Assembly (NCBI RefSeq): GCF_008365275.1 | Contig: NZ_CP043504.1 | Location: 1,612,001 to 1,676,000 of the forward strand | DNA from: Protaetiibacter larvae | GTDB taxonomy: Bacteria; Actinomycetota; Actinomycetes; Actinomycetales; Microbacteriaceae | Direction: 5' to 3' | DNA: 64,000 nucleotides | Part shown: positions 1,138 to 14,075 of the stretch, piece by piece | Layout: each line of letters begins with the position of its first letter | Numbering within the stretch: the first letter of the stretch is position 1 | Made by a program: the position numbers and the translations under genes | The notes under the pieces: generated by a model | The model's database searches: none | What the model was told of the DNA's origin: nothing | Seen by the model: only the letters and a program-made list of their open reading frames with translations

Positions 1138-1143
1138 TAGCCT
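1138..1143 (+). promoter_or_regulatory. -10 element (TAGCCT) of the arg leader transcript
   Basis: TAGCCT matches the actinobacterial TANNNT -10 consensus and ends 7 nt before an ATG at 1151, the spacing expected for a leaderless transcript. No good -35 is visible. Confidence 0.5.
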
Positions 1144-1150
1144 CATGCGC

Positions 1151-1237
1151 ATGGGTCAGCGGATCGTGGTCGAGAGCGTGCAGCTCCGTCGCGTCCGCCG
1201 CGCGCGCCGAATCTCGGCGACGTCGCGCCTGAGCTGA
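1151..1237 (+). CDS. Candidate arginine-rich leader peptide upstream of argC
   Basis: A 28-codon frame reads MGQRIVVESVQL-RRVRRARR-ISATSRLS, with 8 arginines of which six fall in an eight-residue run at residues 13-20. An in-frame ATG at 1145 would add two residues. The ATG at 1151 is preferred because it lies 7 nt after a TAGCCT -10 box. A 14-bp hairpin (1215-1228 with 1252-1265) begins five nucleotides after the Arg run, so a ribosome stalled there would cover its left arm. Directly before a biosynthetic arg operon this is the architecture of amino-acid attenuation. No U-tract follows the hairpin, so control would have to be Rho-dependent or translational. Expression is inferred, not shown; an Arg-rich frame can arise by chance in DNA this GC-rich. 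Confidence 0.5.
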   Translation: MGQRIVVESVQLRRVRRARRISATSRLS

Positions 1238-1265
1238 TCCCCCGCTCGTTCGCGTGACGTCGCCG
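1215..1265 (+). promoter_or_regulatory. Hairpin in the argC leader
   Basis: Positions 1215-1228 (CGGCGACGTCGCGC) pair with 1252-1265 over 14 bp including one G-U, with a 23-nt loop containing the leader stop codon. It lies between the Arg codons of the leader and argC. It has no T-run and so is not a standard intrinsic terminator; a role in attenuation is inferred. Confidence 0.5.
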
Positions 1266-1289
1266 CCGCTGCCACGTCCCGTCGAACCC

Positions 1290-1295
1290 TAAGGT
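1290..1295 (+). promoter_or_regulatory. -10 element (TAAGGT) for leaderless argC
   Basis: TAAGGT is followed by exactly 6 nt and the argC ATG. This fits leaderless initiation and gives argC a second, internal promoter downstream of the leader peptide. Confidence 0.5.
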
Positions 1296-1301
1296 TGATC
1301 C

Positions 1302-2351
1302 ATGCCCATCTCCGTCGCCGTCGCGGGCGCCAGCGGATACGCGGGTGGCGAGCTGCTCCGGCTGCTCGCGGCCCACCCCGAGTTCGAGGTGAACGTCGTC
1401 ACGGCGCACCAGAACGCCGGGCAGCCGCTCTCGGCCGTCCACCCCCACCTGCGCAGCCTGCGCGACCTCGTGCTGCAACCCACCGACCCGGCAATCCTCG
1501 CCGAGGCGGATGTCGTCTTCCTCGCCCTGCCGCACGGCGCGTCAGGTGCGGTCACCGCCCGGCTTCCGGAGGACGTGCTCGTCATCGACTGCGGCGCCGA
1601 CCACCGGCTCACCGACCCCGCCGCCTGGGACGCCTTCTACGGCGGTGACTACCACGGCGCCTGGAACTACGGCCTGCCCGAGCTGCTGCTCGACGGCGGT
1701 GCCACCAAGCAGCGCGAGAACCTCGTCGGCGCCACCCGGATCGCGGTGCCCGGCTGCAACGTCACCGCCATCACGCTGGGACTCGCCCCTGGCATCGCGG
1801 CGGGCGTCATCGAGCCCAACGACCTCGTCGCGGTGCTCGCCGTCGGCACCTCCGGCGCCGGCAAGTCGCTGCGGGCCGACCTCCTGTTCAGCGAGCAGTC
1901 CGGCTCAGCCGGCGCCTACGCGGTGGGCGGTGTGCACCGGCACACCCCCGAGATCGTGCAGAACCTGCAGGCGGCGGGCGGCGCAGGGGTCACCATCTCG
2001 TTCACGCCCGTGCTCATACCCATGTCGCGCGGCATCCTCGCCACCTCGACGGCACGGCTCGCCCCGGGCGTCTCCGCCACGGATGTGCGGGAGGCCTGGG
2101 AGGCGGCGTACGCGGGGGAGACCTTCGTGCAGCTGCTGCCGGAGGGCTCCTTCCCTCGCTCGGGCGACACGACAGGCGCCAACACCGCCCTCATCGGACT
2201 GACCGTGGACGAGAACGCCGGGCGGGTGGTCGTCGTCTCGGCGATCGACAACCTCGTCAAGGGCACCGCGGGTGCCGCCATCCAGTCCGCCAACCTCGCG
2301 CTCGGCCTGCCCGAGGCGACCGGCCTTCCCCAGAACGGAGTCGCCCCGTGA
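1302..2351 (+). CDS. argC: N-acetyl-gamma-glutamyl-phosphate reductase
   Basis: ArgC reduces N-acetylglutamyl phosphate to the semialdehyde with NADPH, the third step of arginine synthesis. The 349-aa protein has the usual length. An N-terminal Rossmann motif [12 protein letters not shown] is at residues 9-20, and the catalytic cysteine is in V-P-G-C-N-V-T-A at Cys152. The ATG start sits 6 nt after a -10 box, so the mRNA is probably leaderless. It is the first gene of an argC-J-B-D-F operon and overlaps argJ by four bases (GTGA). Confidence 0.97.
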
Positions 2352-3499
2352 GCGTCACCGCCGCATCCGGATTCACCGCCGCCGGCGTCACCGCCGGCCT
2401 CAAGACCTTCGGCGGGCTCGACCTCGCGCTCGTCGTCAACGAGGGCCCCCTCCGCAGCGCCGCCGCGGTGTTCACGAGCAACCGCGCGAAGGCGAACCCG
2501 ATCATCTGGTCGCAGCAGGTGATCGCCGACGGCACCGTGAGCGCCATCGTGCTCAACTCGGGCGGGGCGAACTGCTTCACCGGTGCCGAGGGCTTCCAGA
2601 CCACCCACGCCACCGCCGAGGCGGTCGGCGAGGATCTCGGCGTCTCGGCGGGCGACATCCTGGTGTGCTCCACGGGGCTCATCGGCGAGCAGCTCGACCG
2701 CGCGAAGCTGCTGGCCGGGGCGCACCTCGCGGCCGTCGAGCGCACCGCGAACGGCGGCGCGGACGCCGCGCGTGCCATCATGACGACCGACTCGAAGCCC
2801 AAGACCGCCGTCGTGCGGCGCGGCGGCTGGACGATCGGCGGCATGGCGAAGGGTGCCGGGATGCTCGCGCCGGGCCTCGCCACGATGCTCGTCGTCATCA
2901 CCACCGATGCCGTGCTGCTTCCCGCCCAGCTCGACGCCGCGCTGCGCCAGGCCACCCGGGTGAGCTTCGACCGGCTCGACTCGGACGGCTGCATGTCCAC
3001 CAACGACCAGGTGACCCTGCTCGCGAGCGGTGCGTCCGGCGAGGAGCCGGAGCCCACCGAGTTCACCGCGGCGCTCGTCGAGCTCTGCCAGGATCTCGCC
3101 CGCCAGCTGCAGGCGGACGCCGAGGGCGCCAGCCACGACATCGCCATCGAGGTCGTGGGCGCCGCGGACGAGGACGACGCCGTCGAGGTGGGTCGCGCCG
3201 TGTCGCGCAGCAACCTGTTCAAGGCGGCCGTGTTCGGCAACGACCCCAACTGGGGCCGGGTGCTCGCCGCGATCGGCACCACGGCGGCCGCCTTCGACCC
3301 GTACGAGGTGGACGTGTCGATGAACGGCGTGCGGGTGTGCGCCGCGGGCGGGCCCGACCGGCCGCGCACCGAGGTCGACCTGCGCCCGCGTGAGGTCCAC
3401 GTGCTCATCGACCTGCACGCCGGATCTGCGCACGCCACCATCCTCACCAACGACCTCACCCACGACTACGTGCACGAGAACAGCGCCTACGCCTCATGA
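2348..3499 (+). CDS. argJ: Glutamate N-acetyltransferase / amino-acid N-acetyltransferase
   Basis: ArgJ transfers the acetyl group from N-acetylornithine to glutamate (cyclic arginine pathway); bifunctional forms also use acetyl-CoA. The 383-aa precursor has the family's self-cleavage motif [11 protein letters not shown], with the break expected between Ala178 and Thr179, making Thr179 the N-terminal nucleophile of the beta chain. The GTG start overlaps the argC stop (GTGA), so it is translationally coupled. Having argJ implies acetyl recycling, so no argE is needed. Confidence 0.96.
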
Positions 3500-4388
3500 G
3501 CATGGAAGAAGCGTCCGTGAAGGCCGCGACCCTCATCGAATCCCTGCCGTGGCTGCTGCGGTTCGCCGGGCGGATCGTGGTGGTCAAGTTCGGCGGCAAC
3601 GCCATGGTGGACGCCGAGCTGCAGCGCGCCTTCGCGCAGGACATGGTCTACCTGCGCTCGGTGGGGCTCAAGCCCGTCGTCGTGCACGGCGGCGGCCCGC
3701 AGATCTCGGCGATGCTCGACCGGCTCGGCATCCCGAGCGAGTTCCGCGGCGGCTACCGGGTGACCACCCCCGAGGCCATGGAGGTCGTGCGGATGGTGCT
3801 CACCGGCCAGGTGAGCCGCGAGCTCGTCTCGCTCATCAACGAGCACGGCCCGCTCGCCTCGGCGATCTCCGGGGAGGACGCGGGGCTGTTCCAGGCGCGC
3901 AAGCGCGGGGCGCTCGTCGACGGCCCCGACGGTGAGAAGACGCTCGTCGACATCGGCCTCGTCGGCGATGTCGTCGAGGTCGACCCGGCCGCCGTGCTCG
4001 CCATGATCGAGGCCGGGCGCATCCCGGTGATCTCGTCGATCGCCCCCGACATCGACGTGCCGGGTCAGTCGCTCAACGTCAACGCCGACTCGGCGGCGGC
4101 GGCGCTCGCGGTCGCGCTCGGCGCCGAGAAGCTCGTGGTGCTGACGGATGTCGCCGGCCTCTACCGCGACTGGCCCAACCGCGACTCGCTCGTCTCGCAC
4201 CTCACGCGCGACGAGCTCGCCGAGCTGCTGCCGGGTCTCGAGTCGGGCATGATCCCCAAGATGGCGGCATGCCTCGAGGCGGTCGACGGCGGGGTGCCGA
4301 AGGCGGCCATCATCGACGGGCGGCGTCCGCACTCGGTGCTGCTCGAGATCTTCACGGATGCCGGGATCGGCACGGAGGTGGTGCCGGC

Positions 4389-4392
<4 letters not shown>
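3496..4392 (+). CDS. argB: Acetylglutamate kinase
   Basis: ArgB phosphorylates N-acetylglutamate and is commonly the arginine-inhibited step in organisms that use argJ. The 298-aa amino-acid-kinase fold shows V-V-K-F-G-G-N at residues 29-35 (ATP-binding Lys31) and V-V-H-G-G-G-P at 62-68. Its ATG overlaps the argJ stop (ATGA); an alternative ATG lies two codons downstream. Fourth-base overlaps on both sides place it firmly in the operon. Confidence 0.97.
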
Positions 4393-6553
<2,161 letters not shown>

Positions 6554-6557
6554 CGCG

Positions 6558-7235
6558 TCAGGCGTTGGTGAGCGAGCCGATGAAGTTCGGGTCGCTCAGC
6601 AGCACACCGTAGAGCGTGCCCCAGAAGATGATCGCCGCGATCACGCCCGCGACGAGCGGGATCCAGAACACCACGATCCTGCGCTTGATGAGCAGCGGGA
6701 TCGAAAGGCCGACCGCGAGGAGGTACAGCACCACATGGCTGATCGCGATGATGGCCGCACCCGACCCGACGGTGCCGTTCCAGTCGTAGCCCTGCGCGGC
6801 GAGCGACTCGCGCAGCAGGTCGACATCGGTGAGCGCGACCGCGTAGAGCAGCCCGAGCCCGAGGCCGCCGAGTCCGAGCACGAGCAGCACGATCGTGAGC
6901 ACGAGATCCCAGGTGCGGCGGCGGCGAGGCGCGGCGACCGCACCGTAGCCGGGCTGACCGTAGACGGGCTGCGCGTTCTGGGCGTAGCCGGGTGCCGGGG
7001 CGTAGCCGGGAGCCTGGGGGTAGCCGGGAGCCTGGGGGTAGCCCGGAGCCGCGGGGGCCGGGGTCGCGGGGGCCGGGGTCGCGACGGGCGCCGCGGGCTC
7101 GACCGGTGCGACAGGAACCTCGGGTGCGGCGGCGGGCGCCGGCTCGACGGGGGCGAACTCGCCGAACTGCGGCGCGGGTTGGGCCTGCGGGGCGGGCGGA
7201 ACGGGCGGGACGTCAGGAGTGTTCGGCTCGGACAT
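6558..7235 (-). CDS. Pro/Ala-rich membrane protein of unknown function
   Basis: The 225-aa protein has a disordered N-terminal half rich in Pro and Ala, with tandem P-G-Y-P-Q-A and P-G-Y-A-type repeats around residues 67-95, followed by three predicted membrane helices (near 108-130, 155-180 and 190-212) and a short tail. No enzyme motif is visible. Many actinobacterial small membrane proteins have this arrangement of cytoplasmic Pro-rich region plus helices. A TAGGGT box 6 nt before its ATG gives a leaderless promoter. It separates argF from argH and converges on argF. Function unknown. Confidence 0.8.
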   Translation of the reverse strand: MSEPNTPDVPPVPPAPQAQPAPQFGEFAPVEPAPAAAPEVPVAPVEPAAPVATPAPATPAPAAPGYPQAPGYPQAPGYAPAPGYAQNAQPVYGQPGYGAVAAPRRRRTWDLVLTIVLLVLGLGGLGLGLLYAVALTDVDLLRESLAAQGYDWNGTVGSGAAIIAISHVVLYLLAVGLSIPLLIKRRIVVFWIPLVAGVIAAIIFWGTLYGVLLSDPNFIGSLTNA

Positions 7236-7265: not shown

Positions 7266-8916
<1,651 letters not shown>

Positions 8917-14009: not shown

Positions 14010-14075
14010 TCGAGTGGCCGCGCAGCGGCCCACCTCTCGCCGATCGAGTAGCCGCGCAGCGGCGTATCGAGATCC
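13998..14075. repeat. Two tandem copies of the dispersed palindromic repeat after tyrS
   Basis: CTCGCTGATCGAGTGGCCGC and CTCGCCGATCGAGTAGCCGC open two successive units in reverse orientation; the second is complete, ending in GTATCGAGATCC. The first copy contains the tyrS stop codon. Confidence 0.85.

Follow-up and report, generated by a model that had tools for sequence, protein, structure and literature searches.

Organization of the argC locus

The window, that is, the whole 64-kb stretch of DNA analysed here, belongs to a 2.56-Mb single-contig genome and carries the arginine biosynthetic genes argC, argJ, argB, argD, and argF in series. These genes and the elements preceding argC are as follows.

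53-1063: gene for a DUF2252 protein (Pfam PF10009), the upstream neighbour
1138-1143, + strand: -10 box TAGCCT of the putative leaderless promoter of the leader (sequence); transcription start expected at or next to 1151
1151-1237, + strand: leader open reading frame of 28 codons, MGQRIVVESVQLRRVRRARRISATSRLS and stop (sequence and conservation)
1187-1210, + strand: putative arginine sensor run, CGT CGC GTC CGC CGC GCG CGC CGA (sequence and conservation)
1215-1228, + strand: 5' arm of the hairpin (segment 2), overlapping the leader codons for SATSR (fold; GGCG invariant in the alignment)
1235-1237, + strand: TGA, stop codon of the leader, located in the hairpin loop (sequence)
1252-1265, + strand: 3' arm of the hairpin (segment 3, GUCGCCG) (covariation)
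1266-1289, + strand: C-rich, G-poor spacer, possibly a Rho-loading tract (base composition)
1290-1295, + strand: TAAGGT, most likely the Shine-Dalgarno sequence of argC (UAAGG), taken for a second -10 box in the initial annotation (locus comparison)
1302-2351, + strand: argC, first gene of the putatively controlled operon
2348-3499, + strand: argJ (NCBIfam NF003802)
3496-4392, + strand: argB (NCBIfam TIGR00761)
4269-5624, + strand: argD (NCBIfam NF002874)
5621-6553, + strand: argF (NCBIfam TIGR00658)
6558-7235, - strand: DUF6264 gene, between argF and argH

The true start of argD is probably further in, with the family match beginning at residue 57. The interval between argF and argH (the latter at 7299), a frequent location of argR and argG in other Actinobacteria, is occupied here by the DUF6264 gene. 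The argG-family match of this genome was found elsewhere (G000:C1:1755022); the family members represented by loci L226-L245 have either a high-scoring argG match or, as here, only a longer, weakly scoring argG-family protein at another locus. In many relatives argC is preceded by pheT; with the DUF2252 gene in this place, pheT is displaced or separated.

The initial annotation had proposed a leaderless 28-codon frame with an arginine run directly before argCJBDF, and such a frame was located at 1151-1237, its ATG separated from TAGCCT by 7 nt. The run reads Arg-Arg-Val-Arg-Arg-Ala-Arg-Arg, six arginines in eight codons. When both strands of the window were searched for frames of 12-60 codons whose start codon follows a -10-like box at a distance of 5-8 nt and which contain at least four arginines within eight residues, the leader was the sole frame to combine these properties. 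The 14-bp hairpin, described earlier as following the frame within 5 nt, is also present, but its placement had to be corrected: the stem begins 4 nt past the last Arg codon, the 5' arm is formed by the last codons of the frame, and the stop codon is in the loop. The 14 bp (1215-1228 with 1252-1265) include one G-U pair, and the predicted energy of -34.4 kcal/mol was reached by none of 300 simple shuffles. Since stems of this length by themselves recur in the GC-rich window (12 overlapping matches at ~6 places), the significance of the hairpin lies in its conservation. The last two Arg codons of the run contain CGCC (1205-1208, segment 1), which can pair with GGCG (1216-1219) in segment 2. CGCC is present in both segment 1 and segment 3, so that segment 2 is able to pair with either. 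The 1:2 helix is weak, with only 4 bp and a mean probability of 0.20 in full-length folds.

Conservation of the leader in Microbacteriaceae

The argC loci of 80 named records, of the genus, and of at least one genome from most genera of the family were compared. In the alignment of upstream regions that the initial annotation had proposed, the frame, the Arg codons, and the hairpin were all kept family-wide, which confirms that the observation at this locus is real and conserved. In all eight relatives in the genus, the frame is present at an identical start spacing, together with the sequence RRxRRxRRISAT and the same hairpin. The design was found in at least 42 of 80 genera, a count that some leaders may have escaped because the search demanded an arginine run and a -10 box; a further genus, g10, also shows the element in a covariance-model scan. 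The common design consists of a -10 box, 6-7 nt, a start codon, an arginine run, an in-frame CGA by the 5' arm of the hairpin, a covarying hairpin, and the Shine-Dalgarno sequence of argC. A leader with a leaderless-type start was present in 118 loci, corresponding to 101 distinct leaders. In 100 of these, the gap between TANNNT and the start codon, ATG or GTG, is 6 or 7 nt, although the search had allowed 5-8 nt. The leaders are 18-43 codons long and contain 5-11 arginines. In the argC protein tree, the leader is distributed over the two main branches of the family, with seven changes vs 36 in shuffles, which is compatible with an early gain followed by several losses, many of the forks being weak. 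About half of the genera have no leader and no ArgR either, so the leader is dispensable in principle.

The pattern of substitutions is consistent with a frame that is translated. Among members of the genus, the Arg codons switch only between CGC and CGT, whereas neighbouring codons change the amino acid, and the N-terminal half of the leader diverges freely. The CGA motif adjoining the hairpin arm is in the reading frame of the leader in all 118 leaders. CGA makes up 24% of the leader Arg codons vs 4% of those in argC from the same loci, a sixfold enrichment of which part is the RNA motif itself, where CGA is fixed. The conserved RNA core is approximately CGCCGANUCUNGGCGAC. Relative to segment 2, the stop codon is at +1 in 62 distinct leaders, where an in-frame UAG within the core ends the peptide, and at +19, i.e. 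18 nt further on, in 32 leaders, in which the frame continues for six codons up to another fixed stop; the leader in the window ends one codon beyond, at +22. Thus, the same RNA is kept while the peptide ends differ.

In the core, GGCGAC of segment 2 pairs with GUCGCC of segment 3, which lies ~30-50 nt downstream. When 55 non-redundant loci were aligned by sequence alone, a few rows with a 3-nt shift in segment 3 being left out, the 2:3 pairing was possible in 86.8% of the alignment cells, as compared with at most 68% for slid partners. Both sides changed in seven of the 11 modelled pairs, and neither the paired percentage nor the covariation score was reached in any of 500 shuffles. No Rfam covariance model matched the element over its gathering threshold. 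When 100 genomes were scanned with a covariance model built from the element itself, strong matches were confined to argC; those weak matches elsewhere that were checked are embedded in long open frames that have no leaderless start, and were rejected. Nothing credible was found at argG in a scan of whole argG loci with the model, which is a safer negative than our ORF-based check, where the correct argG frame was chosen in some loci only. In an order-wide search, six of seven Microbacteriaceae were positive vs one of 92 other genomes, the latter weakly. This sole match outside the family is from an order relative (G278:C1:3369239-3369312, E 6e-5).

Absence of ArgR

Arginine operons are the textbook case of control by the ArgR repressor. 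It had been pointed out earlier that no argR is present in the gene cluster, and the outcome was the same for the cluster, the genome, and the family sample. The Pfam search for ArgR gave no match in the 2.56-Mb genome and none in 200 Microbacteriaceae genomes from 85 genera, whereas ArgR was detected above the cut-off in 138 of 139 genomes from other families of the order; the lone negative is a reduced genome of 0.8 Mb. Since the same search finds ArgR in these control genomes, its absence from the family is not a failure of the model.

Probable Shine-Dalgarno sequence of argC

The initial annotation had also assigned TAAGGT at 1290-1295 as a second -10 box, which would give argC a promoter that escapes the leader. 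The comparison of loci did not uphold this assignment, because it is the Shine-Dalgarno part that is conserved together with the leader and TANNNT is dispensable. The sequence [AG]AGG was kept in 89 of 90 leader-bearing loci whether TANNNT survived or not, and TANNNT was lost in 21 leader-bearing loci. In loci without the leader, TANNNT was kept in 36 of 54 and AGG in only 10 of 54. When unambiguous cases were counted, the ratio of Shine-Dalgarno-only to -10-only loci was 21:1 with the leader and 9:35 without it (Fisher P ~3e-9, the sequences being not fully independent). TAAGGT is thus most likely the ribosome-binding site of argC. The difference in retention indicates that argC is most likely read from the leader transcript through its Shine-Dalgarno sequence where the leader is present, and is leaderless where it is not. 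An extra, weak start at 1302 is possible in the genome of the window. It has also to be considered that TAAGGT is a leaderless promoter of argC, so that some transcripts would be outside the control of the leader: as a -10 box its sequence is reasonable and its distance to the start codon suits a leaderless transcript, and TANNNT is indeed used at argC in genera that have no leader. With 21 leader loci that have the Shine-Dalgarno sequence but no TANNNT, and a single locus of the opposite kind, we regard this as unlikely. TAAGGT-like boxes before start codons in such genomes should be interpreted with caution, since such a box may serve for ribosome binding and not as a leaderless promoter.

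Ribosome position and hairpin formation

The position of the ribosome on the leader was then related to segment 2. A ribosome placed where the arginine run begins reached segment 2 in none of 96 non-redundant leaders, stopping at a median of 16 nt short of it. With the ribosome held at the arginine run, the 2:3 helix was predicted to form with a mean probability of 0.77, and of 0.996 in the genome of the window. In every leader the stop codon lies at segment 2, within it, or shortly after it, and segment 2 is covered, at least partly, when the ribosome is on this codon. Arginine shortage is therefore expected to favour the hairpin and plenty to oppose it. Because argC is presumably expressed when arginine is short, the hairpin would be the ON signal.

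These data suggest the following mechanism. When charged Arg-tRNA is scarce, the ribosome would stall in the arginine run and leave segment 2 free; the 2:3 hairpin would then form and the operon be expressed. When arginine is plentiful, the ribosome would reach the stop codon and occupy segment 2; with segment 3 and the C-rich tract left accessible, expression would be shut down, in all likelihood through termination by Rho ahead of argC. The sensing half of this scheme, in which a stall at the Arg codons frees the hairpin and completed translation blocks it, is well supported by the comparison of loci, all the evidence being comparative. Control of argCJBDF by arginine through the ribosome was the main proposal of the initial annotation, and it gains support from the conserved frame, Arg codons, and hairpin as well as from the lack of ArgR in 200 genomes of the family. 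It is very probable that an arginine-sensing leader peptide controls argC, and the leader is best read as an arginine attenuator that works through the ribosome and takes the place of the lost ArgR. It comprises a short ORF rich in codons for the pathway amino acid, which is presumably translated, and a helix that depends, by geometry and prediction, on the position of the ribosome. In these sequence-level features it matches leader-peptide attenuators, although it does not fit the definition of a classical one with a terminator.

An Arg-rich peptide preceding an arginine gene could also act through arrest of the nascent chain, which would sense free arginine in the exit tunnel as the fungal arginine attenuator peptide does. 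However, the peptide is not conserved outside the arginine run and varies in length and in arginine content, and what is kept is the RNA (CGANUCUNGGCGAC), in which TAG ends the peptide in the 62 leaders mentioned above while the 32 others read on, often with ISATP; arrest by the peptide is therefore highly improbable. Even less credible is a small functional protein unrelated to the control of argC. Such a protein would account for an ORF with a conserved start and stop, but hardly for an N-terminal half that is free to diverge within the genus, a position that is always before argC, and the exact coupling of the frame to the hairpin.

Output of the leader

The output is the weakest step of the scheme. 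No intrinsic terminator (a hairpin with a T-run) was found before argC in the window, and a classical 3:4 terminator was rejected because segment 3 had no recurring partner when 68-93 non-redundant leaders were folded with segment 2 masked. The spacer between the hairpin and the Shine-Dalgarno sequence contains 46% C and 22% G at leader loci, as compared with 34% C and 33% G at argC loci without the leader (Mann-Whitney P 4e-13; since the sequences of the family are related, such P values overstate independence). A C-rich, G-poor spacer would suit the loading of Rho, although C-richness is a weak sign of it. The argC Shine-Dalgarno sequence had predicted exposures of 0.42, 0.43, and 0.42 in the free, stalled, and terminated states, respectively, and this lack of state dependence speaks against its sequestration as the output. 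Because of the C-rich tract, the lack of a terminator, and the unchanged exposure, we favour Rho-dependent attenuation over translational control. If the core of the scheme is right, the chances that the output is Rho rather than translation or mRNA decay are about even.

Translational attenuation, in which the leader RNA would hide the ribosome-binding site of argC and a stalled ribosome would unmask it with no direct effect on transcription, is a rival for this step only, and the arginine-sensing leader would stand with it. A terminator is absent, the Shine-Dalgarno sequence of argC is conserved, and the same layout with a leaderless ORF occurs in another actinobacterial group (PMC9031893). 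Nevertheless, exposure was equal in the three states, even if such folding is imprecise, and a conserved anti-Shine-Dalgarno strand was not found in the leaders; we consider translational attenuation improbable, while keeping it as the second choice. The hairpin itself might be a terminator without a U-tract, given its strong GC-rich stem (-34 kcal/mol). There is no T-run behind the stem, and a biosynthetic operon would then be turned off by a lack of arginine, the condition in which the 5' arm is free. This makes a terminator at the hairpin very unlikely.

Relation to known systems

A survey of RNA control in Actinobacteria in 2005 found the regions ahead of arginine operons to have no regulatory RNA structure that is conserved (PMC1262725), and our full-text literature search, which most subscription papers were outside the reach of, returned no arginine leader before a bacterial argC. 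The closest mechanism is that of orf34-speF of Salmonella, and the closest layout is that of the leaderless polycysteine ORFs of mycobacteria. In orf34-speF, a ribosome positioned at the stop codon blocks a hairpin downstream of the stop, whereas one held at two Arg codons permits it, and Rho is involved (PMC6386406). The two leaders share a short ORF, consecutive Arg codons, a stop adjoining a hairpin, the lack of an intrinsic terminator, and Rho, which at argC is a proposal from the sequence. In contrast, orf34-speF controls ornithine decarboxylase, has an ORF with a Shine-Dalgarno sequence in a 516-nt leader, and is gammaproteobacterial; a sequence relation between the two was not seen (PMC6386406). 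The polycysteine ORFs are likewise actinobacterial, short, and leaderless, with a run of the sensed residue before biosynthetic genes (Canestrari et al. 2020, in PMC9031893). They differ in sensing cysteine at several loci, whereas the argC leader would sense arginine at one locus and gives no predicted sign of Shine-Dalgarno masking. Masking of the ribosome-binding site is reportedly what Canestrari et al. proposed in 2020 for the mycobacterial ORFs. The classical trp, ilv, and leu attenuators, including actinobacterial ones (PMC1262725, PMC13236596), resemble the argC leader in their sensor codons, a stop placed to block an antiterminator arm, and competing helices, which at the argC leader are putative, but they end in a terminator hairpin with a U-tract, and none was found at the argC leader. 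ArgR with its ARG boxes has arginine control of the argC operon in common with the leader; it is a DNA-binding protein, however, and is absent from the family sample.

A large and common family of soil and water bacteria shows no ArgR, and a leader with the features of a peptide-based sensor sits before the operon for arginine precursors. The leader suggests how Microbacteriaceae control arginine synthesis and would clearly exemplify the replacement of one mode of regulation by a different one. As a leaderless attenuator without a terminator, it also offers a direct test of the proposed Rho output.

Possible origin of the leader tail

In L131, L156, L128, and L113 (genera g5, g32, and g36), argC lies directly behind pheT with no arginine leader. 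The 3' end of pheT in these loci (GERFGATLRD and the stop codon), together with the downstream GTCGCCGCC, resembles the RNA core of the leader, and the covariance model matched genomes of g5 and g32 with E values of 7e-5, 3e-6, and 3e-6. When the last 33 nt of ISATP-type leaders were aligned at the stop codon with the pheT end of the same genome, a mean of 15 and up to 20 of the 33 positions were identical, as compared with 9.5 (sd 2.5) at other in-frame offsets; examples of the loci compared are L099, L100, L101, and L115. This suggests that the tail of the leader may derive from a copied pheT end, the compared rows being related and GC-rich. The complete reading, that the family swapped ArgR for a leaderless ribosome sensor with a Rho output and no terminator hairpin, and that the tail and the hairpin came from a copied pheT 3' end, is offered only tentatively, and it is doubtful that all its parts hold together.

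A dispersed intergenic repeat, TCGATACGCCGCTGCGCGGCTACTCGATC, was also observed, with 20 copies in the genome at up to two mismatches and none in a reversed control. Two copies lie in the window, at 1066-1099 and 14037-14070, and the former is just upstream of the leader promoter.
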